Shown here: positions 3,888 to 60,246 of the stretch, piece after piece | Position numbering within the stretch: the stretch's first letter is position 1 | Layout: every line of letters begins with the position of its first letter | DNA from: Gammaproteobacteria bacterium | GTDB lineage: Bacteria > Pseudomonadota > Gammaproteobacteria > Eutrophobiales > Eutrophobiaceae | DNA: 64,000 bases | NCBI GenBank assembly: GCA_026710545.1 | Contig: JAPOQU010000063.1 | Coordinates: 1-64,000 of the forward strand | Reading direction: 5' to 3' | Position numbers and translations under genes: made by a program | The notes under the pieces: generated by a model | What the model saw: only the letters and a program-made list of their open reading frames with translations | The model's database searches: none | What the model was told of the DNA's origin: nothing

Positions 3888-6377
3888 GTGTGCAATGACA
3901 ATCTTGCCGGTGAACCGGTGGTGACCGATACACAGGTTAATCTCCCTGGACGCGCCGACGTCATCATCGTAGGCGGTGGCGTGATCGGTTGTTCAATTGC
4001 CTACCACCTGGCCGGATTTCAGTCCCTGGACGTGGTATTACTGGAACGCCGGCAGATTACATCGGGGACCACCTGGCACGCGGCCGGACTGATCGGGCAG
4101 TTGCGCGGCTCCATCAACATGACCAGGCTCGCCCGTTACACCAGGGAACTTTACGACGGGCTGGAAGCGGAGACGGGGCAGGCGACGGGCTACCGGCAAT
4201 GCGGCTCCATATCAATCGCCACCAGCGCAGAACGCTTCGAGGAACTGAAACGCAACGCGTCGATGGCAAAGGTTTTCGGACTACAGGTCGACGTCGTCAC
4301 ACCCGGGGCCATCAGGGAGCGGGCGCCACTGCTGCATACCGGCGACGTCCTCGGTGGCATCCATATACCTTCCGACGGCTACGGCAACGCGGTCGACATA
4401 ACCCAGGCGCTGGCGAAGGGCGCACGCGCCGGCGGCGCGCAGATTTTTCAGAACGTGCCGGTAACGGCAATCCGTACCGGCGCCGGCCGGGTCACCGGCG
4501 TGAGCACCGGCTACGGCGACTTGGACGCCGACCACGTGGTGCTTTGCGCCGGCATGTGGACGCGGGACCTGGCCGCGACCATCGGGGTCAACGTACCGCT
4601 GCACGCCTGCGAGCACTACTACGTTTTGTTTGAATCCGTTGCCGGACTGGAAGAAGACCTGCCGGTCATACGCGACTACGACGCCTGCACCTATTACAAG
4701 CACGACGCCGGCAAGTTACTGGTGGGTGCGTTCGAACCCAACGCCCGGCCCTGGGGTATGGACGGCATCCCCGAGGACTTCTGTTTTGACGAGATCGCCG
4801 GTAATTTCGACCACTTCGAGCCGATCCTGCAGGACGCCATGGCGCGCGTGCCGGCTCTGGAAGCGGCCGGCATCCAGAAGTTCTTCTGCGGCCCGGAAAG
4901 CTTTACCCCGGACGTTCGTTACCATCTCGGCCGGGCGCCGGCGTTCGGGAACTGCTTTGTCGCCGCGGGCCTGAATTCAATCGGCCTGCAATCGGCAGGC
5001 GGAATCGGGAAAGTCATGGCGGAATGGATTCGCGACGGACAGCCACCGGCCGATCTCTGGGAGGTGGACGTGCGCCGCAACATGCCGTTCCAGGGCAACC
5101 GCAAATACCTGCAGGAACGCGTGTCCGAAAGCCTGGGGCTCCTGTATGCCAGGCACTATCCCTTCCGCCAGTACGAGACCTCCCGCGGCGTGCGCAAGTC
5201 ACCGCTTTACGACCGGCTCAAGGCAATCGGCGCCTGCCACGGCGAGACTGCAGGATGGGAGCGGCCGAACTGGTATGCGCCCGCGGGGGTGGAACCCGTG
5301 TACGAATACAGCTACGGGCGCCAGAACTGGTTCGAGTACTCGGCGGCCGAACACCGGGCGGTGCGAGAGAACGTCGGCCTGTTCGACCAGTCGTCCTTCG
5401 CCAAGTACCGCCTGGAAGGCAGGGACGCGGCGCGTGTGCTGAACCAAGTCTGCGCCAACGACATTGACGTCCGTCCCGGCCGCATCGTCTATACACAATG
5501 GCTGAACGGGAAAGGAGGCATCGAGGCGGACCTGACGGTCACACGCCTCTCGGAGGACAGCTTCCTGATCGTGACTGCCGCGGCGACGGAAGTGCGCGAT
5601 TTTCACTGGCTTAAACAGCACATCCCCGCCGCTGCGCATTGCGTGCTGACCAACATAACCTCGGCCATGGGCGTCATCTCCGTGATGGGTCCGAATGCGC
5701 GCAAGCTGTTGCAGCCACTAACGCCGGCCGACCTGTCAAACGAGGCGTTCGGCTTTGCAACCAGCCGGGAGATAGAACTGGGTTACGCACTGGTGCGCGC
5801 ATCGCGCATCACCTATGTCGGCGAGTTGGGCTGGGAACTTTATATTCCGACTGAGTTCGTACTCGACGTATATGACGCTATCACGGCTGCCGGAGAGTCG
5901 GTGGGCCTGGTCCATGCCGGCTATCATGCCCTGGACTCCCTGCGCATCGAAAAGGCCTACCGGCACTGGAGTCACGATATTACCGACGAGGATACACCAC
6001 TCGAAGCGGGACTTGGCTTCACGGTCAAGTTCGACAAACCTGGCGGGTTCATCGGCCGCGAGGCGTTGCTGAAACAGCAGGAACAGGGTCTGAACAGACG
6101 CCTGCTGCAGTTCAGGCTGCTGGACCCTGAACCCCTGCTTTACCACAACGAACCGATCTGGCATGAAGACAGGATTATCGGCCACGTGACATCCGGCAGT
6201 TACGGCCACACCCTGGGCGCCAGTATCGGTCTCGGATACATCGATACTTCAGACGTTGCCGATGTTTCGGAACTGCCGGGAGATACGTTCGAAATCGAGG
6301 TTGCGGGCATCCGCGTACCGGCCGAGGCATCCCTGCGTCCCATGTACGATCCGGATGGGGGGAGGATTAGGAATTAG
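3888..6377 (+). CDS. FAD-dependent dimethylglycine/sarcosine dehydrogenase-like protein with GcvT folate domain (paralogue 2)
   Basis: Same architecture as its upstream neighbour: an N-terminal flavin domain with VGGGVIG and GTTWHAAG, the latter holding the predicted covalent-FAD histidine, and a C-terminal GcvT domain. Length is about 829 residues. No ATG suits the start. GTG 3888 follows a G-rich stretch, and GTG 3921 is an alternative that removes 11 residues before the flavin fold, so the start is uncertain. The C-terminus ends GGRIRN and its TAG stop lies inside a GGAATTA-type repeat shared with the convergent gene. Two adjacent but divergent copies suggest sequential or different N-methyl substrates, for example dimethylglycine and sarcosine. 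Confidence 0.87.
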   Translation: MCNDNLAGEPVVTDTQVNLPGRADVIIVGGGVIGCSIAYHLAGFQSLDVVLLERRQITSGTTWHAAGLIGQLRGSINMTRLARYTRELYDGLEAETGQATGYRQCGSISIATSAERFEELKRNASMAKVFGLQVDVVTPGAIRERAPLLHTGDVLGGIHIPSDGYGNAVDITQALAKGARAGGAQIFQNVPVTAIRTGAGRVTGVSTGYGDLDADHVVLCAGMWTRDLAATIGVNVPLHACEHYYVLFESVAGLEEDLPVIRDYDACTYYKHDAGKLLVGAFEPNARPWGMDGIPEDFCFDEIAGNFDHFEPILQDAMARVPALEAAGIQKFFCGPESFTPDVRYHLGRAPAFGNCFVAAGLNSIGLQSAGGIGKVMAEWIRDGQPPADLWEVDVRRNMPFQGNRKYLQERVSESLGLLYARHYPFRQYETSRGVRKSPLYDRLKAIGACHGETAGWERPNWYAPAGVEPVYEYSYGRQNWFEYSAAEHRAVRENVGLFDQSSFAKYRLEGRDAARVLNQVCANDIDVRPGRIVYTQWLNGKGGIEADLTVTRLSEDSFLIVTAAATEVRDFHWLKQHIPAAAHCVLTNITSAMGVISVMGPNARKLLQPLTPADLSNEAFGFATSREIELGYALVRASRITYVGELGWELYIPTEFVLDVYDAITAAGESVGLVHAGYHALDSLRIEKAYRHWSHDITDEDTPLEAGLGFTVKFDKPGGFIGREALLKQQEQGLNRRLLQFRLLDPEPLLYHNEPIWHEDRIIGHVTSGSYGHTLGASIGLGYIDTSDVADVSELPGDTFEIEVAGIRVPAEASLRPMYDPDGGRIRN

Positions 6378-6395
6378 GAATTGAACCTTAATTCC
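6364..6395. repeat. GGAATTA repeat at convergent gene ends
   Basis: The sequence GGATTAGGAATTAGGAATT is followed ten bases later by TTAATTCC. It supplies the stop codon of the plus-strand dehydrogenase (TAG 6375-6377) and of the minus-strand MttB-like gene (TAA at 6388). Both proteins therefore end in Arg-Asn. The same heptamer recurs at 38262-38281, 38371-38453 and 52264-52290. Confidence 0.75.
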
Positions 6396-7932
6396 TGCCG
6401 ATTGCCTCGCGGGACAGGAATATCGGAAACTTCGCCCTTACCTCGTAATCGGTACTGTCGCTGACGTGGTTCGGGAAATGGCCGGCAAGGATTGAGCGCT
6501 TTTTCTCTATGGCTTTCTGCAACATAATTGGTTTGCCGCTTTCCTCCCACACGTTCGGGCTGCTCCGGTCGCCGAAATCCGGGTAAATGTATTCGCTCTG
6601 CATGACCTTCAAGGTTTTGTCAGAGCCCAGGTAATGACCTTCACCACTGGTGCAGACCTGTTCGATTTCGTCAAAACTCAGGGTTTCGGCATTCACCTCG
6701 ATGCCGCGCGTTACCCGCAGGGCAGCGCCGAGTACGTCATTGTCCAGCAGCAGGCTCTCGGGGCAGGCGCCCAGCAGGCTTGCGTACATGCCCGCCGATT
6801 CGTATACGATGTTGGCGCCCGACAACGCCGCTGCCAGGGTTGTCGCGGCGCGCTCCGCGCCGGCCTGAAAATCCGGGAATTTCGAATCCGTCATACCGCA
6901 CGCGGTGCCGAACGGCAGGTCGTAGACGTTGCCCATCTGTGCACAGGCCGCAGACAACAGGCCTTGCTCGGGTGAACCACCGCTCATTGCGCCGGTGCGC
7001 AGGTCGGACACGAACGGCCAGGCGCCGAGAATCGCCGGCGCGCCGGGCTCGATGGCATTCACGTAGACCAGGCCGCCGAGACATTCCGCCCAGGCCTGGG
7101 AAACGGCAGCGGCCAGGCAGGCAGGGGTCGTCGCGCCTGCCTGTCCGGCGGAAAGGAGCAGCACCGGCATGCCGCCCTCGACTGCGACCCGCAAACATTC
7201 CAGTGACTCCTGTGCGAACTTCATGGGCGGCACCACAAAGCAGTTGGACTGGCTCACGAACGGCCGCGCGCGCCAGGCGGCTTCACCTCCGGCGATTAAA
7301 TACAACATTTCCAGGGTCTTTTCGACGTGGACGGCCTCTGTCCAACTTGAGCCAACGTGCTTGCTGGTGCCCATGACTGCGCAATACGTGGTATTGAGAT
7401 CCATTTCGTAATTATCGGTAATGTCCCGCAACACGCAGGTGCGCTGGAACATGTGTATGTGATCGCAGGTGTCGGTGATGCGCGCCATATCGTAGAGGTC
7501 CTGGGCCGTCGATTCGCGGTACAGGTTGTTTTCAGGGTCGGCAACCATGACCGCGGCGCCCGCCGTGGCAAAGTGCACCTTGCTGCCGCTGAGATCCAGG
7601 TCGTGTGCGGGGTCCTGGCCGTGCAGCACCAGGTTGTGCCGGGCAAGTTTCATGGTGTTTTCGACCACCGCTCGCGGCATTCTCAGCCGGCCGTCATCGC
7701 CGAGCACGGCGCCGGCAGAGGTACAGGTCTCTATGCAGTGGGGTGTCGCGTCGCCGAAGCCGACTTGTTCCAGAATCCTGAACACGTTGGCGTTAATGGC
7801 CTCGACATCCGCTGCCTTCAGGGGCCGGAATTGCCCGCCTGCTTCGCCCGGATGAACGGGTTTGAGCGCATCAGCCAACGGCGCACTGCGCAACGCCCTG
7901 CGCGCCTTTCTTCCACCGGATTGTCTCGCCAT
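6388..7932 (-). CDS. Trimethylamine methyltransferase (MttB) superfamily protein, non-pyrrolysine
   Basis: Predicted cytoplasmic TIM-barrel methyltransferase of 514 residues that moves a methyl from a quaternary amine to a corrinoid protein. Full-length similarity to the MttB/COG5598 family is seen by eye (HFATAGAAVMVAD, GTSKHVGSSW, SQSNCFVVPPMKFAQESLEC, FGTACGMTDSKFPDFQAG). The reading frame has no internal TAG, so pyrrolysine is not used. In the family this marks enzymes for substrates other than trimethylamine, such as the glycine betaine enzyme MtgB. ATG 7932 is chosen because GGAGGA stands seven bases upstream. The corrinoid partner is at 9754-10482. No MtgA/MtrH-type second methyltransferase or RamA-type activator is in the window. 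Confidence 0.88.
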   Translation of the reverse strand: MARQSGGRKARRALRSAPLADALKPVHPGEAGGQFRPLKAADVEAINANVFRILEQVGFGDATPHCIETCTSAGAVLGDDGRLRMPRAVVENTMKLARHNLVLHGQDPAHDLDLSGSKVHFATAGAAVMVADPENNLYRESTAQDLYDMARITDTCDHIHMFQRTCVLRDITDNYEMDLNTTYCAVMGTSKHVGSSWTEAVHVEKTLEMLYLIAGGEAAWRARPFVSQSNCFVVPPMKFAQESLECLRVAVEGGMPVLLLSAGQAGATTPACLAAAVSQAWAECLGGLVYVNAIEPGAPAILGAWPFVSDLRTGAMSGGSPEQGLLSAACAQMGNVYDLPFGTACGMTDSKFPDFQAGAERAATTLAAALSGANIVYESAGMYASLLGACPESLLLDNDVLGAALRVTRGIEVNAETLSFDEIEQVCTSGEGHYLGSDKTLKVMQSEYIYPDFGDRSSPNVWEESGKPIMLQKAIEKKRSILAGHFPNHVSDSTDYEVRAKFPIFLSREAIGRN

Positions 7933-8043
7933 CGTTTTATCCTCCGGATAGCAGTAAAACCGGCAAAATTCTGGCACATGGAAATGATTGAAGCAAGAAA
8001 AATAATCCCGTTAAATTACTGTATTCAGGATGAGCTTATTGGT

Positions 8044-17999: not shown

Positions 18000-18019
18000 C
18001 GGATATACCTCAAAATTTT

Positions 18020-18087
18020 GGGGTCAGAGTAAAAATACGTCTAACCTGGTAGCAGCGTCCGCCCGTCGTTAAGTATTTTTACTCAGC
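18020..18087. repeat. Paired inverted GGGGTCAGAGTAAAAATAC element
   Basis: Left arm GGGGTCAGAGTAAAAATAC (18020-18038); right arm GTATTTTTACTCA (about 18072-18084), truncated before the GACCCC end. The right arm reaches the toxin gene's stop codon region (18083-18085). The spacing resembles the intact pair at 46480-46569. Confidence 0.75.
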
Positions 18088-19389: not shown

Positions 19390-19419
19390 CGTTACTGTCT
19401 CATTCAGCTATCGATATTT

Positions 19420-19445
19420 GGGGTCAGAGCTTTTGCTCTGACCCC
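19420..19445. repeat. GGGGTCAGAGC palindrome at the hydroxylase gene end
   Basis: Palindrome GGGGTCAGAGC - TTTT - GCTCTGACCCC. It encodes the last residues and the TGA stop of the Asp/Asn hydroxylase-like gene. It lies in the short spacer before the HD-domain gene, where it forms a potential intercistronic hairpin. Confidence 0.88.
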
Positions 19446-20419
19446 AAAAATTGATCGTAGACATCAGGCGCGAGGGCGGCGCGCAGTATGCGCTGCATGA
19501 TTACCGGGTTCACGCCGATATCGTTTGCGGAGATTAGCAGGGCGCGCCGGTCAGGGTGTAGTTCGCTTTTTACCCGGTCTATCAGGCGCCGGTAACGGGG
19601 TAATCCCTGTTTGCCCATGCCGTAGCGGTGCCAGGTCGCGCGCCAGTCGCTGGCGAAGTCGTGCAACGTGCATTTGTAACGTTCGACCAGGTCAGGATCA
19701 TTACGGGGATGATCCTCAAATTCACGCACCAGTCCGTCCACCAGCGCATCGATTTCCCCCGGCGCCATGACCGGCGTGATATTGTAATTCTCGGTCTGGA
19801 TCTCAGCCCGCCTGCCCGGCTCGAACGGTACGAATTCAACCTGTTTGTCATCCGTGCCGTAGCCCGCCGGACCGGTCTGCACTGAGCGCCTGACCATCTG
19901 CCAGAAACGCGAGGAACCGGCCAGGTCTATGACCAGGTGAATACGCTCCTGTGCGCCTGCATTGATGACGTTGTGCCGGCGCCAGTTATCGAATATCCAG
20001 CATTCGCCCGACTGCATGTGGACTTTTTCATCGCCGCAATAAAACATGACTGCGGGGTTGGTCGTGATCGGTATGTGTATGCGTGTCCGGGTATACCAGT
20101 GGTAATTGAAATCGACGTGGTACTGCACCTCGCAGCCCGGACCCAGTTTCATCAGGCGGGAACGCGCCAGCACCTCGCCGAAACCCGCCATCACCTGCCG
20201 GTGGTAGGGGCACCGGGCAAGATTGGGGGTAGCCGCCATGCGTCCGCCGAATTCATCGTTGTCCCCACCGCCCCGGGATATGAGCGCAACGGCCGAATTC
20301 CCCTTCAATCCCAACGGGTGCGGCCGCCAGGCGGCCGGTTCCAGTTGCGCGGCTTCCTGTGCCAGCATGCTTGCGTCAAAGGACAGCGGAAGGCGGATGA
20401 AGGGTCTGGCAAGTTTCAT
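19424..20419 (-). CDS. Aspartyl/asparaginyl beta-hydroxylase-domain protein (Fe(II)/2-oxoglutarate oxygenase)
   Basis: 331-residue double-stranded beta-helix oxygenase. Iron and 2-oxoglutarate residues are visible: His101-x-Asp103 (QYHVDFNYHW), His149 (NWRRHNVINAG) and Arg159 (ERIHLVIDL). This matches the Asp_Arg_Hydrox family, which hydroxylates peptides or small molecules. A C-terminal part of about 130 residues after the oxygenase fold has no recognised domain. The last residues, LGSEQKL, and the stop codon come from a dispersed palindrome. It sits between the sulfotransferase gene and the HD-domain gene; hydroxylation followed by sulfation of one product is an attractive but unproven reading. 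Confidence 0.8.
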   Translation of the reverse strand: MKLARPFIRLPLSFDASMLAQEAAQLEPAAWRPHPLGLKGNSAVALISRGGGDNDEFGGRMAATPNLARCPYHRQVMAGFGEVLARSRLMKLGPGCEVQYHVDFNYHWYTRTRIHIPITTNPAVMFYCGDEKVHMQSGECWIFDNWRRHNVINAGAQERIHLVIDLAGSSRFWQMVRRSVQTGPAGYGTDDKQVEFVPFEPGRRAEIQTENYNITPVMAPGEIDALVDGLVREFEDHPRNDPDLVERYKCTLHDFASDWRATWHRYGMGKQGLPRYRRLIDRVKSELHPDRRALLISANDIGVNPVIMQRILRAALAPDVYDQFLGSEQKL

Positions 20420-25551: not shown

Positions 25552-25606
25552 AATTTGGGACACCCATAAATTTACAATATTTATTAATTTATGGGTGTCC
25601 CAAATT
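25552..25606. terminator. Perfect 21-bp inverted repeat between convergent genes, likely bidirectional terminator
   Basis: Arms AATTTGGGACACCCATAAAT(T) at 25552-25572 and its exact complement at 25586-25606 flank a 13-base AT-rich loop. It begins two bases after caiD's stop, and its end contributes the TAA of the convergent dehydrogenase. The AT-rich outer ends give short U-runs. The arm sequence also resembles repeat-type elements, so it may be a mobile repeat serving as terminator. Confidence 0.75.
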
Positions 25607-26591
25607 AGGTTCTCCGGCTACGGCGCGCATCTTCCCGGGCAAGCACGTTGCCGGCGCCGACCTCGAATTGTTGCAGGGCTCGCATGATGGCAATCAGGCA
25701 GTCGTCGCGTAACTGCTCCAGTTCCTTCACCGTCCGCCCCGCGGCCTGTTGCCGGGTTCCGTCAGTCAGCTTGTCTATCAATTCATCGGTCAGTTCAGGC
25801 GCTTCCAGTTTTGTCCAGGGCAGCTTCAATGCCGGGCCGAACTGTTTCATAAAATCACGCATGCCGCCGTCGCCGCCAGCCATGTGGAAAGACAGGCAGG
25901 TACCCATGAAGGCCCAGCGCAGGCCCGGACCGTAGGTGATGGCTGCATCAAGTTCCCCGGTGCCGGCCACATCCTCGTTGACCAGGTGCAGGATTCCCCG
26001 CCACAGCGCCTCCTGCAGGCGGTCGGACAGGAACCCTGCTATTTCGCTGCGCACCCGCAACGGGCGCATACCCAGGTCCGTGTAGAATGCCACGGCGCGG
26101 TCAACGGCCTCAGGCGCGGTTTTCCTTCCACCCAGCACCTCCACCAGCGGCAGCAGGTACACCGGATTGAACGGGTGACCGACGACGACCCGTTCGGGCC
26201 GGTTGCAACCGGCCTGGAGATCGGACGGCAACAATCCGGAAGTACTGGAAGCAATGACAACGTCCGCGCCGGCGCAGGCATCTATCGCGGCGATCAGGTC
26301 GCGCTTCAATTGCAGTTGTTCCGGTGCGCTTTCCTGGATAAACTCGGCAACCGTGCAGGCCGCCTCCATCGATTCGGCATGACGCAGCCGTTCTATGCTT
26401 GCGCCAGGGTAGAGACCAAGTTTGCATAATGCCGGCCAGGCGTTCTCCAACGCGGCCCCCAACCTGTTCTGCCAGCCCGGTGCGGGGTCCCAGGCAACCA
26501 CGTTGAGACCGCGCGCCAGTATGCGTGCGGTCCAACCCGCGCCGATAACCCCGGTACCGATTACGGCTACGGTTTTAATATCCTGCGCCAT
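25605..26591 (-). CDS. cdhA: L-carnitine 3-dehydrogenase
   Basis: 328-residue NAD-dependent enzyme of the 3-hydroxyacyl-CoA dehydrogenase family that oxidises L-carnitine to 3-dehydrocarnitine. The Rossmann motif VIGTGVIGAGW (10-20), AWDPAPG, FIQESAPEQL, ASSTSGLLPSDLQ, VVGHPFNPVYLLPLVEVLGG and GPGLRWAFMG match known carnitine dehydrogenases. The size is that of the free enzyme, not the thioesterase-fused form. It follows the BKACE gene by 76 bases, the expected functional partner. The stop codon TAA is provided by the inverted repeat at 25552-25606. Confidence 0.92.
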   Translation of the reverse strand: MAQDIKTVAVIGTGVIGAGWTARILARGLNVVAWDPAPGWQNRLGAALENAWPALCKLGLYPGASIERLRHAESMEAACTVAEFIQESAPEQLQLKRDLIAAIDACAGADVVIASSTSGLLPSDLQAGCNRPERVVVGHPFNPVYLLPLVEVLGGRKTAPEAVDRAVAFYTDLGMRPLRVRSEIAGFLSDRLQEALWRGILHLVNEDVAGTGELDAAITYGPGLRWAFMGTCLSFHMAGGDGGMRDFMKQFGPALKLPWTKLEAPELTDELIDKLTDGTRQQAAGRTVKELEQLRDDCLIAIMRALQQFEVGAGNVLAREDARRSRRT

Positions 26592-33307: not shown

Positions 33308-33328
33308 GGACGGAATTCAATTCCGTCC
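33308..33328. repeat. GGACGGAATT palindrome at convergent gene ends
   Basis: Variant of the dispersed palindrome with a GGACGGAATT half-site. It begins ten bases after the MFS stop and contains the TGA stop (33317-33319) of the convergent TupA-like gene, whose terminal Arg-Gly-Arg-Asn it encodes. Confidence 0.82.
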
Positions 33329-34132
33329 CCGTATCCTTATAACATCGGGTATGAAGAGTTGCTCGCCTGATATCCTGAATTCACGAATAATACGCTGCCC
33401 CTGCTCTCCCCGGATGAAGTCCGCGTATTTCTGCGCCAGCGCCGTTTGGACATGGGGATGTTTTTCGGGATTAATGAGGATAACGTGGTACGAATTGCGT
33501 AGTTCCGCCGCGCCTTGATGGACGATATCCAGGTCTGTCTTGCCTTTAAATGCCAGGTACGTGCCCCTGTCGGTCAGCGTGTACGCCTGCCTGTCATCGG
33601 CGATCTTCAAAACGGCGCCCATTCCCTGGCCGACAGACAGGTACCATTCCCCTTCCGGCCTGATCCGGGCCGCCTGCCAGAGAGCCATTTCCTTCTTGTG
33701 GGTTCCTGAATCATCCCCTCTTGAAATAAAACCGGCAGCGGATTGTGTAATCCGGGTCATGGCATCTGCCGGGGAATTCGCCGCGGCCACGCCAGCCGGA
33801 TCCGCGGCCGGGCCGACCAGCACAAAATCGTTGTGCATGACAGGCAGACGTTCTACGCCATAGCCGCTCTCCATGAACTCCTGTTCCGCTGCCGGGGCAT
33901 GGACCATGACCAGGTCCACGTCGCCGTTCTCAGCCAGGCGCAAGGCCTTGCCGGTGCCGACGGCGATCACGTCCACCGTGACGTTGTACTGCTCTTCAAA
34001 AGGCGGGTGCAGCAGGGACAGCAGGCCCGAGTTTTCCGTGCTGGTGGTCGTGGCCAACCTTAACCTGTCCTGGGCAAATACAGTGCTGGACAATAAAACT
34101 GCCGCCAGTAGTGAATACAAAACTCTACTCAT
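33317..34132 (-). CDS. Periplasmic TupA-like oxyanion-binding protein
   Basis: 271-residue solute-binding protein with a signal peptide (MSRVLYSLLAAVLLSSTVFA-QD). LRLATTTSTENSGLLSLL and ISRGDDSGTHKKEMALW are typical of tungstate-binding TupA proteins. ATG 34132 lies two bases after the soxG stop and is preferred to a GTG-like extension into soxG. It is an orphan: no TupB permease or TupC ATPase is adjacent. Location at the end of the sarcosine oxidase operon is unexplained. Tungstate, molybdate or another small anion are candidates. Confidence 0.85.
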   Translation of the reverse strand: MSRVLYSLLAAVLLSSTVFAQDRLRLATTTSTENSGLLSLLHPPFEEQYNVTVDVIAVGTGKALRLAENGDVDLVMVHAPAAEQEFMESGYGVERLPVMHNDFVLVGPAADPAGVAAANSPADAMTRITQSAAGFISRGDDSGTHKKEMALWQAARIRPEGEWYLSVGQGMGAVLKIADDRQAYTLTDRGTYLAFKGKTDLDIVHQGAAELRNSYHVILINPEKHPHVQTALAQKYADFIRGEQGQRIIREFRISGEQLFIPDVIRIRGRN

Positions 34133-34134
34133 TG

Positions 34135-34767
34135 TTACATTGCCCCGGCGCCACTGTAGTGCAGCCACAGGGCCGCGTATTCGGCGAAACTGCGGCGGAC
34201 GATGATATCGAAGGTTGGAGTGTTATCGACCTGGGCTATCAGCATGGACGTTTTTGCCAGGGTGGTCTGTGCGCATTGGCCCACTTTGAACGCGCGCGGG
34301 TGAAGGTCCAGGGTACAGCCTTTCGCCAGTACCTTCCGTGCCTGGCTGCCGCGCAGGCGGAGTAAAATCTGTCCACCCGTCACATCGACCAGGGAGTGGC
34401 ATTGCCCGGACAGGCTTTTCCCCAGTTGTTCCGCTTTGCCGTTTTCCTTGCCTGGCCCGGTGACCAGCAACCACTCATCGGGACCCAGCCAGAATATTGT
34501 ATGAGACGACGTGGGTGAAGGGGACGGATTTGAAATCCGTCCCCGTTGTGTGGATGCCGTAAATGTATTGGCAATGGTGGGCAGGGGCTGTCCGAGCGTT
34601 GCCTGCACCGCCTGCAGAAACTGTTCATCCCCGGGGTCGCCGCGCAGGTTCAGGTAACCGTGGTCGGGATGTATTTCCAGTTGCATGCCCGGGTGATCCG
34701 GACCAGGAGCAATCCTCCCATTCAGGAAAGAGGCCAGTGCGTGCCGTCTTTGCGGTCTATGAGGCAT
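34135..34767 (-). CDS. soxG: Sarcosine oxidase gamma subunit (repeat-encoded insert)
   Basis: 210-residue small subunit of heterotetrameric sarcosine oxidase. FWLGPDEWLLV, SLVDVTGGQILLRLRG and the C-terminal FDIIVRRSFAEYAALWL fit SoxG. ATG 34767 overlaps the soxA stop by 11 bases with GGAG upstream. About residues 75-83 (RGRISNPSP) are translated from a complete copy of the 25-bp dispersed palindrome at 34520-34544, in frame, in a region that is normally a short loop. The protein otherwise looks intact, so function is probably retained. Confidence 0.88.
   Translation of the reverse strand: MPHRPQRRHALASFLNGRIAPGPDHPGMQLEIHPDHGYLNLRGDPGDEQFLQAVQATLGQPLPTIANTFTASTQRGRISNPSPSPTSSHTIFWLGPDEWLLVTGPGKENGKAEQLGKSLSGQCHSLVDVTGGQILLRLRGSQARKVLAKGCTLDLHPRAFKVGQCAQTTLAKTSMLIAQVDNTPTFDIIVRRSFAEYAALWLHYSGAGAM
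34520..34544. repeat. Palindromic repeat inside soxG
   Basis: Complete 25-bp palindrome identical to those at 9721 and 13779, translated in soxG as part of QRGRISNPSP. Confidence 0.92.
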
Positions 34768-37840: not shown

Positions 37841-37987
37841 TGTGACTCTCCGGGGACGGACTCTCCGGGGACGGATTTAAATCCGTCCCCAAACCCTCCT
37901 TGTGACTCTCCGGGGACGGATTTAATCCGTCCCCAAACCCTCCTTGTGACTCTCCGGGGACGGATTTAAATCCGTCCCCAAACCCTC
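37841..37987. repeat. Tandem array of palindrome-bearing units between soxD and soxA
   Basis: Three near-complete units of about 43-45 bp plus one truncated unit, each TGTGACTCTCC, a GGGGACGGATTT palindrome, then AAACCCTCCT. The middle unit's palindrome lacks one A. The array fills the whole soxD-soxA spacer and ends only three bases before the soxA start codon region. It would place several stable hairpins in the sox mRNA. Confidence 0.9.
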
Positions 37988-38261: not shown

Positions 38262-38281
38262 AAGAATTAGGAATTAGGAAT
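38262..38281. repeat. GGAATTA repeat upstream of soxD
   Basis: AATTAAGAATTAGGAATTAG-type sequence immediately ahead of the soxD start, opposite in orientation to the heptamer array at 38371-38453, so the two could pair across about 90 bases. Confidence 0.7.
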
Positions 38282-38370
38282 GGGTGCCTTCTGGATGTCA
38301 GGATGCCGTAATTGTCATTTTTGCAGGAACCGGAAAGCTGACAAGTTACTACATGTAACCTATTTACTTC

Positions 38371-38453
38371 AATTCCCAATTCCCAATTCCCAATTCCTAA
38401 TTCCTAATTCCTAATTCCTAATTCCTAATTCCTAATTCGTAATTCGTAATTCC
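38371..38453. repeat. Heptanucleotide tandem array (AATTCCY)
   Basis: Nearly twelve contiguous 7-base units: three AATTCCC, six AATTCCT, two AATTCGT and a partial AATTCC. It starts one base beyond the soxB stop codon. The unit length and gradient of variants suggest slippage growth. It is intergenic, so length change would alter soxB-soxD spacing, not a reading frame. Confidence 0.95.
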
Positions 38454-38454
38454 A

Positions 38455-39711
38455 TCAGTGCGCCACTGCAGCGGCGCCGTGCTCGTCTATCAGCGCGCCC
38501 GTGGTGAATCGTTCCAGGCCGAACGGGGCATTCAGTTCGTGGGGCCGGTCCCGGGCTATGGTATGGGCAAACGCCCAGCCGGAGCCGGGCGTGGCCTTGA
38601 AGCCCCCGGTGCCCCAGCCGCAGTTGAAATAGAGACCCTGCAAGGGAGTCTTGCCGATAATCGGGCAGGCGTCCGGCGCCACATCGACGATGCCGCCCCA
38701 TTGGCGCAGCATGCGCACCCGGCTGAAGGCGGGGAACAGTTCAATAATGGCCTGCATGGCATGCTCTATGGTGTGGAAACTGCCGCGCTGGCCGTAACCG
38801 GTGTAGGCATCGATGCCTGCGCCGACGACCAGTTCGCCCTTGTCCGACTGGCTGATATAGCCATGCACGGCGTTCGACATGACCACGGTATCCAGGACCG
38901 GTTTCAGGGGTTCCGACACGTAGGCCTGCAACGGGTGGCTCTCCAGGGGCAGGCGTAAACCCGCCATCTGCGCCAGGACGCTGGCATGGCCGGCGACCAC
39001 AACGCCGATCCGGTCTGCCTCGATGCGTCCGCGACTGCTCTCGACGCCGGTCACCCTGGAACCGTTACGGCAGATACCGGTGACTTCACATTGTTGAATG
39101 ATATCGACGCCCAGGGCGTCGGCGGCGCGGGCAAACCCCCAGGCCACGGCATCGTGGCGGGCAACCCCGGCCCGGCGTTGCAATGAAGCCCCAAGGATGG
39201 GATAACGCGCCCCGGGAGAGATATCGATCATGGGAATGGCTGCCTTGATCCGGGCCGGCATGACCACCTCGGCATCGATCCCGTCCAGGCGGTTGGCGCC
39301 GACCCGCCGTTCGATATCCCGCATGTCCTGCAGGCTGTGACCCATATTATAGACGCCGCGCTGGCTGAACATGACGTTGTAATTCAGGTCCCGGCTCAAC
39401 CCTTCCCAGAGTTTCAACGACTTCTCGTAGAACAGCGCGGCCTCGGTCCACAGGTAATTTGAACGTACTATGGTCGTGTTCCGCCCCGTATTGCCACCGC
39501 CGATCCAGCCCTTCTCCAGCACGGCGACGTTGCGTATCCCGTGTTCTTTTGCCAGGTAATAAGCGGTTGCCAGGCCATGGCCGCCGCCGCCGATTATGAG
39601 CGCGTCATACTTCTTCCGTGGCGCCGGACTGCGCCAGGCCTGCCGCCAGTTCTCATTATGAGAGACGGCATTGCGCAGTAAGGAGAATATGGAATATTTC
39701 TGCCTGGTCAT
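38455..39711 (-). CDS. soxB: Sarcosine oxidase beta subunit
   Basis: 418-residue flavoprotein subunit. It has an FAD-binding motif ([22 protein letters not shown]), [18 protein letters not shown], and [18 protein letters not shown], which holds the histidine thought to carry covalent FMN in this family. C-terminal [20 protein letters not shown] is a strong SoxB signature. It follows the third dimethylglycine dehydrogenase gene by 38 bases and is followed by soxD, soxA and soxG. Confidence 0.94.
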
Positions 39712-42206: not shown

Positions 42207-42324
42207 GGTTTTCTACTATTGATGGGAGATGGCAATCAAACACGCATCTTAAGCGGCCGAAGACACGAGCCATTATCCCAGGAACGACCGGGATTAGTCA
42301 AAATACGCCATTGGGAAGATATTT

Positions 42325-42343
42325 GGGGTCAGAGTAAAAATAC
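42325..42343. repeat. Single GGGGTCAGAGTAAAAATAC element
   Basis: One arm of the paired repeat seen intact at 46480-46569, without its partner, in the 225-base spacer upstream of the dimethylglycine dehydrogenase gene. Confidence 0.8.
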
Positions 42344-46479: not shown

Positions 46480-46569
46480 GGATATTTTGGGGTCAGAGTA
46501 AAAATACCGGACAGTAAATCGGCTTCACCTGCTTGTTTGCCTGTATTTTTACTCTGACCCCAAATATCC
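46480..46569. repeat. Paired inverted repeat, REP/MITE-like
   Basis: Arms of about 27 bases (GATATTTTGGGGTCAGAGTA continuing to AAAATAC, and its near-exact complement ending CAAATATCC) surround a 35-base centre. No open frame lies inside. It is the intact form of elements seen singly or truncated at 8044, 18020 and 42325. The layout is that of paired REP sequences or a miniature mobile element. Located in the 437-base divergent spacer. Confidence 0.88.
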
Positions 46570-50303: not shown

Positions 50304-52262
50304 GTGACAAAACAGAAGAGCAGTGCCAGCGAAGACAAGTTACTGGGTTTTGATTCAGACATCACACGCCGGGATTTTATCGGCAGCACCTTGATCGGCG
50401 CCGGCGCCGGTTTGTTATACGCCAATGCGCCCGGCCTGATGCGCAATGCAAGCGCCCAGACGCTGCCTGTTCCCTTGACCGGCGTAGGTCCCGACTGGAC
50501 CGGCCCGGGCGGTATCGGCGATTACAAGGATGCCAACGGCAATACCCACCAGGTAATGAACGACGGCCACGGCATCCGCAACGGCGCTTACGAAAAAGCC
50601 TTCAAGGATGCGGTTGATTCAGGCGAAGTCTATGACCTGGTCGTGGTCGGCGGCGGCTTTTCCGGCCTCGCTGCCGCCTACCGCTACCACGAGGACAGAC
50701 CGGACGCGCCGGTCTTGATCCTGGACAACCATGCCATGTTCGGCGGCGAGGCCAAGCAGAACGAATTCGAAGTGGACGGGGTCCATCTATGGGCCCCGCA
50801 GGGTTCCAACGGCAGCGTATTCCCGCCGAACCGCACCAAGCCGATCGGCTGGCATCATGATTACTGGGACAAGCTGGGCTTGCCGCAGGATTTCAAATAC
50901 CAGGCTGCGACAGGCCTGGAAAAGGACCTGAAAATCCCCAGGGACGTGTACAGCCCCATGCACATCGCCTGGGAACATGCGGACCTGGCCCACTACTACG
51001 ACAACCACGGCATGGTGATGAACCCCTGGAACACCGGTTTCAGGGATGCGCCCATGAGCGACAACCTGAAGCGCGAGATGTTGCAGATGGAGCTTTACAA
51101 GGATGTGCCGTACCGGAAGGAGGACTGGCACCACTGGCTGGACACCCTGACCTACGAGGAGTTCCTGACCCGGCACGTCGGTGTTTCAAAAGACGTGACG
51201 CCTTATCTCAACCCGCAGACCGCGGCCATGGGCTGCGGACTGGGCGCGGACGTCATTTCCGCGTATTCGGCCTACGAGTTTGTCCAACCGGGCGTGATTA
51301 CCTACAAGCGCCATGCCGGTTTGGAAGACCCGTCCGACTACGTTTACCTGGCCAGCTTCCCCGGCGGCAACACGGGTATCGCCCGCCATTTCGTCAAGGC
51401 CATGATCCCGGCTGCCATCGAGGGGGATAACTCCCTGTCGGCAGTGCTGTTCAACAATATCAACTGGCAGGAACTGGACCGGGCCGGCCAGCCGACGCGC
51501 ATGCGCCTGTCGGCTACCGTGGCCGGCGTGATGCACGATGGTTCGCCAAATTCCGCCAAGAGCGTATCGGTGATCTATTACCGGGACGGCAAACTCCACA
51601 AGGTCAAGGCGAAAAACGTCGTCATGGCCAGCGGCCAGTGGGTGAACCGGCTCGTCTGCAAGGACCTGCCGCCAGAATACCAGGACGCCATGGCCACGTT
51701 CCACCATGCGCCCATGCACACCGTCAACGTGGCGCTGCGCAACTGGAAGTTCCTGGAAAAACTGGGGGCGACTGCAGTACGCTGGTTCGAGGGATACGGC
51801 TGGTTCTTCAGCCTGCGCCGGCAGATGATCATCGACGGCAAGGAACCCATGCCCCTGGACCCGTCCAAGCCGACCGTGCTCACCATGTACAACTCGTTCT
51901 GCAACCCGGGCATCCCCATGCCGCAGCAGGCGACCACGGCCCGCATGCAATTGTTCGGCCTGCCTTATGCAGATGTCGAACGCGGGGTGCGCGAACAGTT
52001 CACTAAGATGTTCTCGCCTTACGGATTTGACGCCAAACGCGATATCGCCGGTATCGTCTCGAACCGCTGGGGGCATGCCTACGTGGTGTCACCACCCGGG
52101 TTTTACTACGGCAAACACGGCGAACCCTCAGCCAGCGACGTTATCCGCGAACCGCACGGCCGCATTAGCTTCGGTCATTCCGAACTGACCGGCGCCCAGC
52201 TCTGGGGCACGGCCGCAGAGGAAGGCTCACGCGCAGCCAGCCAGGCTCTGGATATGACGTAG
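50304..52262 (+). CDS. TAT-exported FAD/NAD(P)-binding protein, spermidine-dehydrogenase-like
   Basis: 652-residue flavoprotein with an N-terminal twin-arginine signal (DITRRDFIGSTLIGAGAGLL; cleavage near NASAQ), so it is probably periplasmic. The dinucleotide motif is DLVVVGGGFSGLAAAYRY (about residues 111-128), followed by LDNHAMFGGEAKQNEF. The overall layout matches proteins annotated as SpdH-type spermidine dehydrogenases. Conservation of catalytic residues was not checked, so amine oxidation is likely and the substrate open. The start is GTG 50304, since no ATG is suitably placed. It is probably co-transcribed with the TonB receptor ahead of it. Confidence 0.82.
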   Translation: MTKQKSSASEDKLLGFDSDITRRDFIGSTLIGAGAGLLYANAPGLMRNASAQTLPVPLTGVGPDWTGPGGIGDYKDANGNTHQVMNDGHGIRNGAYEKAFKDAVDSGEVYDLVVVGGGFSGLAAAYRYHEDRPDAPVLILDNHAMFGGEAKQNEFEVDGVHLWAPQGSNGSVFPPNRTKPIGWHHDYWDKLGLPQDFKYQAATGLEKDLKIPRDVYSPMHIAWEHADLAHYYDNHGMVMNPWNTGFRDAPMSDNLKREMLQMELYKDVPYRKEDWHHWLDTLTYEEFLTRHVGVSKDVTPYLNPQTAAMGCGLGADVISAYSAYEFVQPGVITYKRHAGLEDPSDYVYLASFPGGNTGIARHFVKAMIPAAIEGDNSLSAVLFNNINWQELDRAGQPTRMRLSATVAGVMHDGSPNSAKSVSVIYYRDGKLHKVKAKNVVMASGQWVNRLVCKDLPPEYQDAMATFHHAPMHTVNVALRNWKFLEKLGATAVRWFEGYGWFFSLRRQMIIDGKEPMPLDPSKPTVLTMYNSFCNPGIPMPQQATTARMQLFGLPYADVERGVREQFTKMFSPYGFDAKRDIAGIVSNRWGHAYVVSPPGFYYGKHGEPSASDVIREPHGRISFGHSELTGAQLWGTAAEEGSRAASQALDMT

Positions 52263-52263
52263 T

Positions 52264-52290
52264 TAATTAGGAATTAGGAATTCCTAATTG
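52264..52290. repeat. GGAATTA repeat at convergent gene ends
   Basis: AATTAGGAATTAGGAATTCC with an internal inverted AATTCCTAATT. It starts just after the flavoprotein stop and supplies the Ile-Arg-Asn-Ser end and TAA stop (52274) of the convergent aminotransferase. Confidence 0.82.
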
Positions 52291-53620
52291 TATTTATCAC
52301 CTTGCGCACGGTATCGAAGGTCTGCTCCAACAGGTCCGGCGTGAACGTCAAAAACGGTGAGAACGCCAGCGTATCCATGCCGTGGCGCACCATCAGTCCC
52401 TGTTCAAAACATTTGACGTGGGCCTCCATTCCCCGGGCGCCGGGCGCGCCGGGGCGCGGGGCCAGTTCGATGGCGCCCATCAGGCCGAAATTGCGGATAT
52501 CTATGACGTTGGGAGCGTCCCGCAAGCTATGCAGCGCAGTCTCAAACACCGGCTCAAGTTCTTTAACTCTGGCGCCGATGTCTTCCTCGACATAAATATC
52601 AAGCGCGGCCAGGCCTGCAGCGGCGGCGACCGGATGGCCTGAATAGGTATAGCCGTGGAAAAACTCGATAGCGTAATCGGGGCCGTTCATGAAACTCTGG
52701 TAAATCTCCCGGCTGACCAGCACCGCACCCATGGGAATGACACCGTTGGTGATCCCCTTGGCCGTGGTGATGATATCCGGCATTACGCCGAAACGCTGGC
52801 AGCCGAACGGCATGCCGATGCGGTGAAACGCGGTAATCACCTCATCGAAGATCAACAGGATGCCGTGCCGGGTGCAGATTTCCCGCAGGCGTTCCAGGTA
52901 ACCCAGGGGAGGAACCAGCACGCCGGCAGACCCGGATACCGGTTCAACGATCACTGCAGCGATATTCTGCGCGTCATGCAACGCGACAATGCGTTCCAGT
53001 TCATCGGCCAGGTGCCGGCCCCACGCGGGTTGCCCTTTGCTGAAGGCGTTATGTTCCAGGTTAAGGACGTGCGGCAGGTGGTCCACGTTTGGCAGCATGG
53101 CATTGCCGAACATCTTCCGGTTTCCGGGAATACCGCCCACCGACATCCCGCCGAAGTTGACGCCATGATAACCCCTTTCGCGGCCGATCAGCTTGATCCG
53201 CGTTCCCTCTCCCCGCACCCGGTGCCAGCCCAACGCTATCTTCAATGCGGTATCGACGGACTCCGAACCGGAATTGGTGAAGAACACGTGGTCGAACCCG
53301 TCAGGGGCGAAATCGATGACCTTCTCCGCCAGTTCGAACGCCCCGGTATGTCCCACCTGGAAAGCCGCGGCGTAATCCAGTTTTGCAACCTGGTCCTGCA
53401 CGGCCTTGACGATCCTGGGATGACAGTGTCCCAGGCCGGTGCTCCACAGGCCGGAGAAAGAGTCCAGGATGGTCTGTCCATCCCGGGTCTTGTAATAAAA
53501 CCCCTGCGCTGACTCGATGATACGGGGGGCATTCTTGAAGGCGCGGTTCGCGGTATATGGTAACCAGTACGGTTCCAGGTTCAATTCATTGCCGACAACC
53601 GGCTTCGCAATATCATCCAT
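52274..53620 (-). CDS. Class III aminotransferase, omega-amino acid:pyruvate type
   Basis: 448-residue PLP enzyme. It shows SGLWSTGLGHCHPRIVKAV, FFTNSGSESVDTALKIAL (phosphate cup), LLIFDEVITAFHRIG, and the PLP lysine in TTAKGITNGVIPMGAVLV. This matches beta-alanine:pyruvate transaminases, which give malonate semialdehyde. ATG 53620 is chosen because upstream in-frame sequence to 53773 is non-conserved and overlaps the divergent gene. A mixed pathway with the MmsA-like enzyme at 8191 (malonate semialdehyde to acetyl-CoA) and with the amine oxidase-like protein next door is plausible inference. The C-terminus comes from a repeat. Confidence 0.88.
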   Translation of the reverse strand: MDDIAKPVVGNELNLEPYWLPYTANRAFKNAPRIIESAQGFYYKTRDGQTILDSFSGLWSTGLGHCHPRIVKAVQDQVAKLDYAAAFQVGHTGAFELAEKVIDFAPDGFDHVFFTNSGSESVDTALKIALGWHRVRGEGTRIKLIGRERGYHGVNFGGMSVGGIPGNRKMFGNAMLPNVDHLPHVLNLEHNAFSKGQPAWGRHLADELERIVALHDAQNIAAVIVEPVSGSAGVLVPPLGYLERLREICTRHGILLIFDEVITAFHRIGMPFGCQRFGVMPDIITTAKGITNGVIPMGAVLVSREIYQSFMNGPDYAIEFFHGYTYSGHPVAAAAGLAALDIYVEEDIGARVKELEPVFETALHSLRDAPNVIDIRNFGLMGAIELAPRPGAPGARGMEAHVKCFEQGLMVRHGMDTLAFSPFLTFTPDLLEQTFDTVRKVINTIRNS

Positions 53621-53691
53621 CGGACTATTTAACCAGAAACAAGCAATAAAAAGGTAGCTCTTGACCCAAAGAATACAGACACGGGCCCGGA

Positions 53692-53719
53692 TTGACAATA
53701 CAATGTTCCCTGGTAAAAA
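53692..53719 (+). promoter_or_regulatory. Promoter candidate for the Rieske oxygenase gene
   Basis: A perfect TTGACA (53692-53697) is followed after 16 bases by TAAAAA (53714-53719), placing a transcript start about 25 bases before ATG 53751. Confidence 0.45.
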
Positions 53720-53750
53720 TTTATCCTTAATCGACACGTTTTGAGGTTGG

Positions 53751-55001
53751 ATGAACATGAGCGCAGTTATCAAGACCGATATCGACCGACTGATTGCCGG
53801 CTACCGCGACGGTTATTCCCTGGAACAGCCGTTTTACCTGTCGCCGGACATCTTCGCCCAGGACATGGAACGCCTGCTTTTCCGTAGATGGCTCCTGGTC
53901 GACCATGAATCACGCATACCCAGCAAGGGCGACTACTTCCTGTTTGACATAGCGAATGAGTCCATCATTATTATTCGTGAGTCCGAAAACAGGGTTAATG
54001 CTTTTTTCAACGTTTGCCGGCACCGCGGCTCGCGGGTATGCCTGGAACAACAGGGCAATAAACGGTTGCTCACCTGCCCCTATCACGCCTGGACCTACGA
54101 CCTGAAGGGAGAATTGCGACCGCCGCAGTTGATGCCGGCCGGTTTTGACAGGTCGCAACACAACCTGCATAAATGCCACGTGACCGTCTTCCACGGCTTG
54201 ATTTTTGTATGTTTGTCTGAGGATGCCCCGCCTGATTTTGCCGAGGAATACGCACCTTTCGATGAAATGCTGGGCTTCCATGGCTTCAAGGACGCGAAGA
54301 TTGCGGTAAAGCGTGATTACCCGAACCGCTGCAACTGGAAGCTCGTTGTGGAAAACTTTCTCGAATGCTACCACTGCGCCCCGGCGCACCCGGAATATTG
54401 CAGCGTACATCCCCCGGACCAGTTGCTGGCGCTTGGAGCCGGTCCCGGTTCCGGGCCTGAGGAAGCCATGGCAAAATATCAGCCGATACTGGACGAATGG
54501 ATGGAAAAAACACTGGCCATGGGCCATCCCGTACCTGAATTTGAGCGGGATGAATATTCCATCGATTTTGCCCAGTTATCAAGATTGCCCATTAATGACC
54601 GGAATTTTGCCTCGGAGACCAGGGACGGCAGCCCCGGCTGCAAAAAACTGATGGGGAAATTCAGGGAATACGACCATGGCGAGACCGCTTTCGTTTTCAA
54701 CCCGACCAATTACATCCTGGCCTTCAATGATTTTGCGCTGATGGTGCGCTTCCCCCCCCGTGACGCCGTCAATACCGATGTGCAGTTCAGTTGGCTGGTA
54801 CACAAGAATGCGGCGGAAGGCGTTGACTATGATGCGGATAATCTCATCTGGGTCTGGGATGAGACGACAAAGCAGGACAAGAAAATTACCGAAGACAATA
54901 ATGCAGGGGTGCAATCCAGCCGTTACCGGCCGGGCCCCTATTCCACGCATGAGGTAAAGGTTGCGGCTTTTATCCGCTGGTATTTGAACAGTATCCGTTA
55001 G
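53751..55001 (+). CDS. Rieske non-heme iron oxygenase, GbcA-like (candidate glycine betaine monooxygenase)
   Basis: 416-residue terminal oxygenase. The Rieske ligands are Cys89-x-His91 (VCRHRGSRVC) and Cys109-x-x-His112 (CPYHAWTY). The mononuclear iron site is in VVENFLECYHCAPAHPE with His208 and His213. This pattern and length match the GbcA/choline monooxygenase branch, which oxidatively removes one methyl from glycine betaine. GAGG precedes ATG 53751. No GbcB reductase is encoded nearby. Stachydrine or carnitine oxygenases are near relatives, so substrate assignment is provisional. Confidence 0.85.
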   Translation: MNMSAVIKTDIDRLIAGYRDGYSLEQPFYLSPDIFAQDMERLLFRRWLLVDHESRIPSKGDYFLFDIANESIIIIRESENRVNAFFNVCRHRGSRVCLEQQGNKRLLTCPYHAWTYDLKGELRPPQLMPAGFDRSQHNLHKCHVTVFHGLIFVCLSEDAPPDFAEEYAPFDEMLGFHGFKDAKIAVKRDYPNRCNWKLVVENFLECYHCAPAHPEYCSVHPPDQLLALGAGPGSGPEEAMAKYQPILDEWMEKTLAMGHPVPEFERDEYSIDFAQLSRLPINDRNFASETRDGSPGCKKLMGKFREYDHGETAFVFNPTNYILAFNDFALMVRFPPRDAVNTDVQFSWLVHKNAAEGVDYDADNLIWVWDETTKQDKKITEDNNAGVQSSRYRPGPYSTHEVKVAAFIRWYLNSIR

Positions 55002-58003: not shown

Positions 58004-59134
58004 TCAGGGCGTCGGCCTGACCGGGACGAACGCCAGTGCCGCCAGCAGGCACAAGCCACAGGAAAACCAGCCGATGGCTGCGTAAGAGAACCAGGTTGCA
58101 ATATAACCGCCGCAAGCGGGTCCGATTGCAAAGGTAAGCGATATGGCACCGGCGGCCAGGGGGGCGGCGCGGCCACTCGGGTCCATGGCCGCGCCGGTGC
58201 CGATCATCAGGGGCAACAGGAACATATACGTCATCCAGTAAAGGTTGACACCGGTGATATAGCTCGTGTTGTCCGTAGCGCCCCCCAAAATCATATACCC
58301 CAGGCTCGCCAGGACCAGGGCGAGTATTACGGGCCGCCTGCGGCCCCACCTGTCACCCAGCCACCCGGCAAACAGCGCGCCTGTCACACCGCTGACAGCG
58401 CCGGTTGCGATGATAAAGCCCGCTTCCTCGACGGAAAAACCCGCCTGCAGACCGAAGCGCACGGAAAAGCTCCAGATGGCGCCGGAACCGATATTGAAAA
58501 AGCCAATGCATAACAACAGGCCGGCCAGGGATTGCAGCGGCAAACCCGGCGCCTTGCCCGCATCCGCTGCCTGCGTTTGCCCCTGCCCCAGCCATCTCAT
58601 TACGGGAATCAGCATGATGACCAGCACACCCAGGGCAATATACGCGCCTTTATAACCGGTGGCCGTAACCACCATGGTAAAACAGGGCAGGAGGACGACT
58701 AACGCCAGCAAACCGGCGGTAACCCCGTAACCCAGCACCCGGTCAGGGTTCGCGGTTGCCGCAGCGGCCATGGCTGCAGCCGCGTAGGCCAGCCCAAGGC
58801 CGGCGCCGGCGATGGCCCTCAAACCAACCAGCAGGTATAAACTGCCGGCGGCCGCGCTGAGAAACTGCGCCGCCACCGCGAGCAGGCAACCGAATACAGC
58901 CAGTTTCCTGTTGGATACTTTCCCGGCCAGCGGCGCAGCGGCCAGGGCCGCAATAGCCACGGCAAGCAATTCAACCGTTCCCAATACCCCGACTTCCGCT
59001 TCGGTAATTGCCAGGCCATCGATCAGGGCGCTGATAATAACCGGTATGGAATTGGCGCTCAGCACGCCCAGGAACATGCCGAAGCTGATGGCGAGCAGGA
59101 GCTTTATCGGGATACGCTGATTGGCTGCCGTCAT
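58004..59134 (-). CDS. MFS transporter
   Basis: 376-residue major facilitator with about twelve hydrophobic segments. GWLGDRWGRRRPVILALVLAS is the classical loop motif. The start ATG overlaps the preceding gene's stop (ATGA, 59131-59134), so translation is coupled to the BHMT homologue. Export or import of a methylated or sulfur compound is plausible from context only. Confidence 0.85.
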   Translation of the reverse strand: MTAANQRIPIKLLLAISFGMFLGVLSANSIPVIISALIDGLAITEAEVGVLGTVELLAVAIAALAAAPLAGKVSNRKLAVFGCLLAVAAQFLSAAAGSLYLLVGLRAIAGAGLGLAYAAAAMAAAATANPDRVLGYGVTAGLLALVVLLPCFTMVVTATGYKGAYIALGVLVIMLIPVMRWLGQGQTQAADAGKAPGLPLQSLAGLLLCIGFFNIGSGAIWSFSVRFGLQAGFSVEEAGFIIATGAVSGVTGALFAGWLGDRWGRRRPVILALVLASLGYMILGGATDNTSYITGVNLYWMTYMFLLPLMIGTGAAMDPSGRAAPLAAGAISLTFAIGPACGGYIATWFSYAAIGWFSCGLCLLAALAFVPVRPTP

Positions 59135-60246
59135 GGTAAGGACCGGACTAATGATGTTCCTTGCTTGATAATTGGGGTCAGAGCAATTGCTCTGACCCCA
59201 ATTATCCAGAAAAGCGTTTCGTGGTGCTCCTTGAGAAACCTGGTGCGGTAATCCTTGACCACATCCTCAGCCCCCAGGACCGCATGCTTTGCAATATCCG
59301 GCGAGTACCGGCTTGCCGGGACTTCCTTGCCCAGCGCCTCGGCCATGGCCCGGACATGGTGCGGGGCGCCGCCGCAGCAGACGCCGATATAGCGCACGCC
59401 CAGGTCTCTGGCGGCCAGGGCAAACTCGGCCATCTCCGAGCGGGTCAATACAAACGGGTCCAGTTCCGCCGGGAATCCTGCTTCCCTGCCCTCCTGTTTC
59501 AGGTCGATAAAACTCAGGTGATCCGCATCAGTCCGGTAGGCAACAGGCAGCGCCGCAACGGGACACTGAACGCTTTCGACGACCTTTGCCAACACCGGCA
59601 GCAAGGTGGACGGTCCCCGTCCGCAATTCAATCCCACCACGTCGGCGCCCTTATCGCTCAAGATCCGGCAGGCGTCGTCAAATGCATAGCCGTCCGCCGT
59701 CGTGGAGGTGACGGCCGTGAAGGTAATCACGGCGGGCAGGTTGAAGCCCTTGATCACGTCGAGTGCGATGTCCGCTTCCGCAAACCAGTCAAAGGTTTCC
59801 GCCACGACGTAGTCCACACCCTCATCCACCGCCCAGGAGAGTTGCTCCTCGTACATGGCGCGTACTTCCTTGCCTGTTTCCTCCGGATTGCCGGGGTCAT
59901 AAACCCAGGTATTGCAGATGTTGGCGGCGACCAGCTTGCCCGACTCGCGGGCCACCTCTCCGGCCAGCCTGACGGCCTGGCGGTTTAACCTTTCGGCATC
60001 GAGTTCGCGTCCCACTACCTTCATCTTGTCCCGGTGCGCATAGTACGTCAGCGCCAGCACCACGTCCGAACCGGCGCGCACGAATTCCCGGTGCAATTCC
60101 TTCACGGCATCGGGATAATCGAGCACCACCTCAGGTACATACGGGCCTGATTTTACATAGCCCCGCCGTTCCAGTTCGAACACATAGCCTTCGGCGCAGA
60201 TGACGATGTCATCCTGCAGTTTTTCGAGGAGCGTATTTGTATTCAT
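59131..60246 (-). CDS. Betaine-homocysteine S-methyltransferase-like protein (repeat-encoded tail)
   Basis: 371-residue homocysteine S-methyltransferase-fold protein. The zinc cysteines appear as GLNCGRGP and GVCCGGAPHH, as in the family. AEGYVFELERRGYV at the N-terminus and TFTAVTSTTADGYAF in the middle fit bacterial BHMT-like proteins. The expected reaction moves a methyl from glycine betaine (or another donor) to homocysteine. The last 20 or so residues, from about WIIGVRAIALTPIIKQ, are translated from the GGGGTCAGAGC palindrome at 59174-59199 and downstream DNA. The original stop seems displaced. The ATGA overlap couples it to the MFS gene. Confidence 0.87.
   Translation of the reverse strand: MNTNTLLEKLQDDIVICAEGYVFELERRGYVKSGPYVPEVVLDYPDAVKELHREFVRAGSDVVLALTYYAHRDKMKVVGRELDAERLNRQAVRLAGEVARESGKLVAANICNTWVYDPGNPEETGKEVRAMYEEQLSWAVDEGVDYVVAETFDWFAEADIALDVIKGFNLPAVITFTAVTSTTADGYAFDDACRILSDKGADVVGLNCGRGPSTLLPVLAKVVESVQCPVAALPVAYRTDADHLSFIDLKQEGREAGFPAELDPFVLTRSEMAEFALAARDLGVRYIGVCCGGAPHHVRAMAEALGKEVPASRYSPDIAKHAVLGAEDVVKDYRTRFLKEHHETLFWIIGVRAIALTPIIKQGTSLVRSLP
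59174..59199. repeat. GGGGTCAGAGC palindrome inside the BHMT-like coding region
   Basis: Palindrome GGGGTCAGAGC - AATT - GCTCTGACCCC, same type as at 19420, here read through without a stop as GVRAIALTP. Confidence 0.9.

Follow-up and report, generated by a model that had tools for sequence, protein, structure and literature searches.

The window, a stretch of 64,000 nucleotides from an uncultured gammaproteobacterium of the Eutrophobiaceae (GCA_026710545.1, contig JAPOQU010000063.1), carries genes whose 3' ends run into short repeats (Table 1). Genes were called with a home-made hexamer model trained on the present genome. All six gene ends which the original prediction had placed in repeats do overlap one, as judged from the letters and these gene calls, and four repeat families (A, B, C and D) cover all six. 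Family A is the palindrome GGGGTCAGAG, also written ATATTTGGGGTCAGAGCAATTGCTCTGACCCCAAATAT, with 48 exact pairs genome-wide, family B the palindrome GGGGACGGA..TCCGTCCCC, and family D a 45-nt palindrome, GGGACACCCAT, with 41 exact pairs genome-wide. Family C consists of GGAATTA heptamer arrays, some of them around a GC hairpin.

Table 1. Repeat elements of the window and the genes whose 3' ends they reach
Feature	Coordinates	Strand	Remarks
Family C heptamer units	6364..6395		Stops of both convergent genes, 3888-6377(+) and 6388-7977(-)
Family A palindrome	19414..19450		Asp-hydroxylase-like gene: C-terminal 8 residues (FLGSEQKL) and TGA stop encoded by the repeat
Aspartyl/asparaginyl beta-hydroxylase-like gene	19424..20419	-	PF05118; 3' end in A
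Family D palindrome	25552..25606		26-nt arms; last two bases within TAA of gene 25605-26591(-)
Family B palindrome	33306..33330		Gene 33317-34168: RGRN and TGA stop encoded by the repeat
Periplasmic binding protein (TupA-like) gene	33317..34168	-	PF12849; 3' end in B
Tandem array of B palindromes	37852..37979		10 nt behind a stop, per gene call
Long family C heptamer array (AATTCCT/AATTCGT units)	38371..38454		16 nt 3' of the stop of gene 38455-39711(-)
Family C heptamer units	52264..52290		Stop of aminotransferase gene 52274-53773(-)
Family A palindrome	59161..59212		In-frame read-through close to the 3' end of S-methyltransferase gene 59131-60246(-)

The Asp-hydroxylase-like gene ends as GGGGTCAGAGCAAAAGCTC[TGA]CCCC (stop codon in brackets) within palindrome A; its orthologs end at varying positions, +4 to +22 residues from the repeat junction, and for two of them the end falls within a B-type repeat. 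At two loci behind the Asp-hydroxylase ortholog, L065 and L066, the C-terminal tails are translated repeats, the tail SGTDFKSVPT of L066 being a translated B palindrome. The TupA-like gene ends as GGGGACGGAAT[TGA]ATTCCGTCC within palindrome B, and its orthologs stop one codon ahead of the junction. Of the convergent pair, the plus-strand gene terminates as GGAAT[TAG]GAATT in family C units, with ortholog stops at exactly the same distance from the junction (+3 codons), and the TAA of its minus-strand partner lies within a facing GGAATTAA unit. Ortholog stops of the aminotransferase coincide with the junction, two of them with A repeats behind, and the convergent partner of this gene stops at 52262, 2 nt off the C array. 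The S-methyltransferase gene carries the A-derived tail IIGVRAIALTPII.., and its stop overlaps the start of the next gene (ATGA).

Families A and B have many dispersed copies, mostly outside genes, and folding predicts strong RNA hairpins for A, B and D. Half-sites of A with the extension GAGTAAAAATAC occur at 46486-46564, 18015-18038 and 42320-42343 of the window; one such pair is inverted with a 29-nt gap, resembling a REPIN, and the others are single. Long-loop A forms of the GAGTAAAAATAC type predominate in sister species and short-loop forms in the present genome. Family D is clustered on few contigs (C3, C111, C98, C78 and C28; loci L048, L050, L200, L195 and L185), and no copy of it was found within 0.4 Mb sampled from two sister species. 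Several copies of family C have inverted heptamer arms with a conserved TGCCGCCTGCGGCGGC hairpin between them. At window positions 38264-38454 and at L024, L011, L032 and L038, such arms enclose a conserved ATGTGCCGCCTGYGGCGGC hairpin, which sometimes has a T run on its 3' side. Cyanobacterial short tandemly repeated repetitive sequences, whose 7-bp units are arranged in tandem and lie outside genes or at gene edges, resemble family C in unit length and position, but C differs in its inverted heptamer arms and, in several copies, in its conserved GC hairpin core. A literature search by the repeat letters found no paper with the family C unit strings. Within the window, no Rfam match and no tRNA gene was found. 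A scan of 18.0-34.5 kb gave fewer intrinsic terminators than in shuffled sequences and none at the palindromes, where a U-tract terminator is absent.

REP-type tyrosine transposases (RAYT/TIRYT) accompany families A and B. The genome holds four Y1 tyrosine transposase genes. The transposases match PF01797 above the cut-off, and their translations contain HVH and YIELNPVRAG or YVDLNPVRAG, giving a Y1 domain with the HUH motif and the tyrosine. Their best NCBIfam model is the REP-associated tyrosine transposase (REP_Tyr_transpos) with 67-72 bits, below its cut-off of 80, a result in keeping with the TIRYT relatives known from GGGGWSAS repeats (PMC3733652). Copies of A lie on both sides of the L002 transposase gene, the downstream one encoding its C-terminus. 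The gene (L002:1358-2115, G000:C89) ends inside this palindrome with ..RGQSICSDP*, and the last residues of the putative mover of A are thus encoded by an A element. A similar gene of a sister species, L325, also lies between A copies. Of family B, one copy follows the stop of the L003 transposase gene at a distance of 3 nt, and an array lies 0.8 kb upstream of the gene; inverted copies thus flank a Y1 gene in the case of A, and only loosely in that of B. Inspection of all four Y1 genes revealed no cognate transposase adjoining C or D.

The arrangement resembles that of the TIRtrons and TIRYT-associated repeats (Di Nocera et al. 2013, PMC3733652) in the self-complementary, dispersed copies and in having inverted copies on the two sides of a tyrosine transposase gene, with the 3' end of the gene overlapped by one of them. 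The A half-site GGGGTCAG fits GGGGWSAS, whereas B fits it only in GGGGACAG variants, the common form GGGGACGG being one base off; the upstream B copies 0.8 kb from the transposase gene and the new host lineage are further differences. With REPs and REPtrons and their RAYT (Nunvar et al. 2010, PMC2817692; REPINs, PMC3116915), the present elements share short palindromes in many intergenic copies, 3'-end placement and a cognate Y1 transposase. However, the symmetrised consensus of A, B and D has no unpaired GTAG or CGTC end tag, which sets these families apart from the GTAG/CGTC REP super-families.

Placement was evaluated against a null in which elements fall randomly in non-coding DNA plus 30-nt gene margins; copies were counted as independent, and the 15-nt bound was chosen in the present analysis. 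The sample comprised 1.2 Mb of contigs known to hold repeats and a hold-out of 0.61 Mb, about 41% of the genome, together with the sister-species sample of 0.4 Mb. Elements within 15 nt of a stop amount to 25/33 for A, 19/36 for B, 13/24 for C and 14/34 for D in the 1.2 Mb sample, as compared to 7.9, 7.8, 7.0 and 10.5 expected, respectively. The hold-out gave 8/13 for A (2.9 expected, P 0.003), 7/19 for B (3.2, P 0.03), 4/10 for C (1.8, P 0.09) and 7/17 for D (4.6, P 0.15), the 3'-end proximity of D not being significant. Over 1.75 Mb outside the window, 32 of 45 A elements (10.9 expected) and 20 of 49 B elements (9.3) are this close, and so are 24/45 (15.1 expected) and 9/14 (3.3), respectively, in the two sister species. 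The enrichment of repeats at gene 3' ends is real, in the hold-out too, and for A and B also in sister species.

The stop codon itself is overlapped at the null rate (35 of 174 elements against about 32 expected, over 1.75 Mb with the window left out). Overlap as the enriched quantity was dropped after A gave 11 against 5.5 in the first sample and 1 against 2.1 in the hold-out. In the window, 5 of 15 elements cover a stop against about 2.5 expected from the sampled rates, which alone is not significant; the claim that six such gene ends are more than random holds against placement anywhere on the chromosome, but not against the non-coding null. On the sampled contigs, a test of the distance to stops, as had been proposed, bears out an enrichment 0-15 nt behind stops, though not at the stop codon. 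The original idea thus holds in a changed form, with the repeats placed immediately behind genes and in some cases extending over the stop. Chance, by which repeats confined to short intergenic spaces would cover some stops, agrees with the overlap rate but explains neither the proximity within 15 nt nor the frame bias described below; it is contradicted for proximity, stands for overlap alone, and as a full account is extremely unlikely.

The distribution among spacers was informative as to the cause of this proximity. Starts are avoided, only one element covering a start; divergent spacers are depleted of A and B, convergent spacers are enriched for elements of all four families, and in tandem spacers the elements lie closer to the upstream stop. 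The tandem-spacer bias of A and B largely disappears if the 20 nt ahead of the start are barred. Long tandem spacers still have more elements within 15 nt of the stop than expected (18/41 against 5.9), whereas long convergent spacers do not (7/20 against 6.0, with only 20 elements), family B alone deviating there (4/5 against 1.5). This contrast is predicted by avoidance of the upstream region of the next gene and not by a benefit near the stop, and harm avoidance fits it better than selection for mRNA stabilisers, small as the numbers are. Preferential insertion at 3' ends, as suggested originally, is not required, since the depletion of elements at starts and in divergent spacers (A and B) and the hugging of stops in long tandem spacers only, again with small numbers, fit purifying selection.

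The supply of stops was followed in 23 genes with a stop from or touching a repeat and in their 96 orthologs from the same genus. In 79 of the 96, no more than 10 codons separate the stop from the repeat junction (median +2), which suggests that only few codons at the C-terminus were exchanged for repeat sequence; in most orthologs the distance from native stop to junction ranges from -15 to +25 codons. A stop-giving frame is found in 26 of the 29 A and B elements that run into coding sequence, that is 16/18 for A (expected fraction 0.48, P 4e-4) and 10/11 for B (0.36, P 3e-4); C and D elements entering coding sequence display no frame bias. The simplest reading of the bias is that read-through insertions were eliminated, and the bias itself supports selection acting on stop supply.

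Orthologous ends are also occupied repeatedly. A repeat lies near the stop in 33 of the 96 orthologs, often one of a different family, as compared to a background of 23% in the relatives (P 0.008); the gene at C77:5123 ends in A here, and in three relatives A, C and B are found at that end. Among 93 ortholog pairs, a repeat in one member goes with a repeat in the other (odds ratio about 4-5, P 0.002 to 0.0008), more weakly where both ends have at least 40 nt of space (P 0.13). At 17 shared ends the elements, compared by eye, are unlike in form, spacing and flanks. Vertical inheritance of the same element was rejected at these ends on account of those differences. The shared ends look like independent insertions into permissive ends.

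Two explanations would give the 3' end an active part. In one, the repeats would be useful 3'-end cassettes, stop included, whose RNA hairpins make the upstream mRNA more stable, terminate transcription or adjust translation. The strong hairpins of A, B and D, the hugging of stops by A and B above the null even in long tandem spacers, and the independent re-occupation of the same ends in sister species are in favour, as is the ribosome stalling reported for E. coli REPs within 15 nt of stops (Liang et al. 2015, cited in PMC12306157). The palindromes without a U-tract terminator, the long convergent spacers without hugging and the weaker re-occupation of roomier ends point the other way, making this explanation unlikely. 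In the other, the transposition machinery would target 3' ends, for instance via DNA structure or transcription-linked single-stranded DNA. A preference common to two or more unrelated families and repeated insertion at the same ends would agree with targeting, but the junctions show no obvious shared target sequence, the native stop-to-junction distance is widely spread, and the missing hugging in long convergent spacers would be unexpected; targeting is accordingly very unlikely.

With a probability of roughly 0.78, the repeats are short elements, mobile now or in the past, whose insertions persist where harm is small, namely in the stretch just behind stops. Families A and B would be spread by the neighbouring transposases as single-stranded hairpins. 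Insertions would land broadly, and selection would then remove those in coding, promoter and ribosome-binding regions. The sites left would be the few bases 3' of stop codons and the last dispensable codons, and an element intruding on the latter would persist mainly when the frame is closed at once, of which each of the four families is capable in at least one frame. The outcome would be a tail of about 0-11 residues and a stop, both repeat-encoded. The hairpins may later have acquired a function in protecting mRNA 3' ends or in translation, of the kind reported for E. coli REPs. A bolder proposal holds that the unrelated families are interchangeable 3'-end cassettes, each an in-frame stop with an RNA hairpin, repeatedly recruited because useful, and that C, with its heptamer arms and a core resembling a terminator, is an element not described before; this proposal is considered unlikely.

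Placement of this kind has precedents. According to PMC3733652, REPs of several genomes are found no more than 20 bp from gene 3' ends, chiefly in convergent and tandem spacers, and often contribute the stop codon with their termini; the present finding is hence a new instance of a known pattern. The supply of stops from the repeat is alike, although here the stop is a TGA, TAA or TAG inside the palindrome and not a GTAG terminus. The E. coli REPs within 15 nt of stops (Liang et al. 2015, cited in PMC12306157) share the hairpin directly behind the stop, but several of the present elements overlap it.

These observations extend the gene-end placement of REP-like elements, and their spill into the last codons, to an uncultured lineage and indicate that both are general across unrelated families. 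The frame bias and the independent re-occupation are two measurable signals which could separate tolerance from useful recruitment. For annotators, the recurring tails LGSEQ.L, RGRN and GTDFKSVP are translated repeats rather than conserved protein motifs, and such tails on orthologs probably lead databases to list conserved tails that are spurious.
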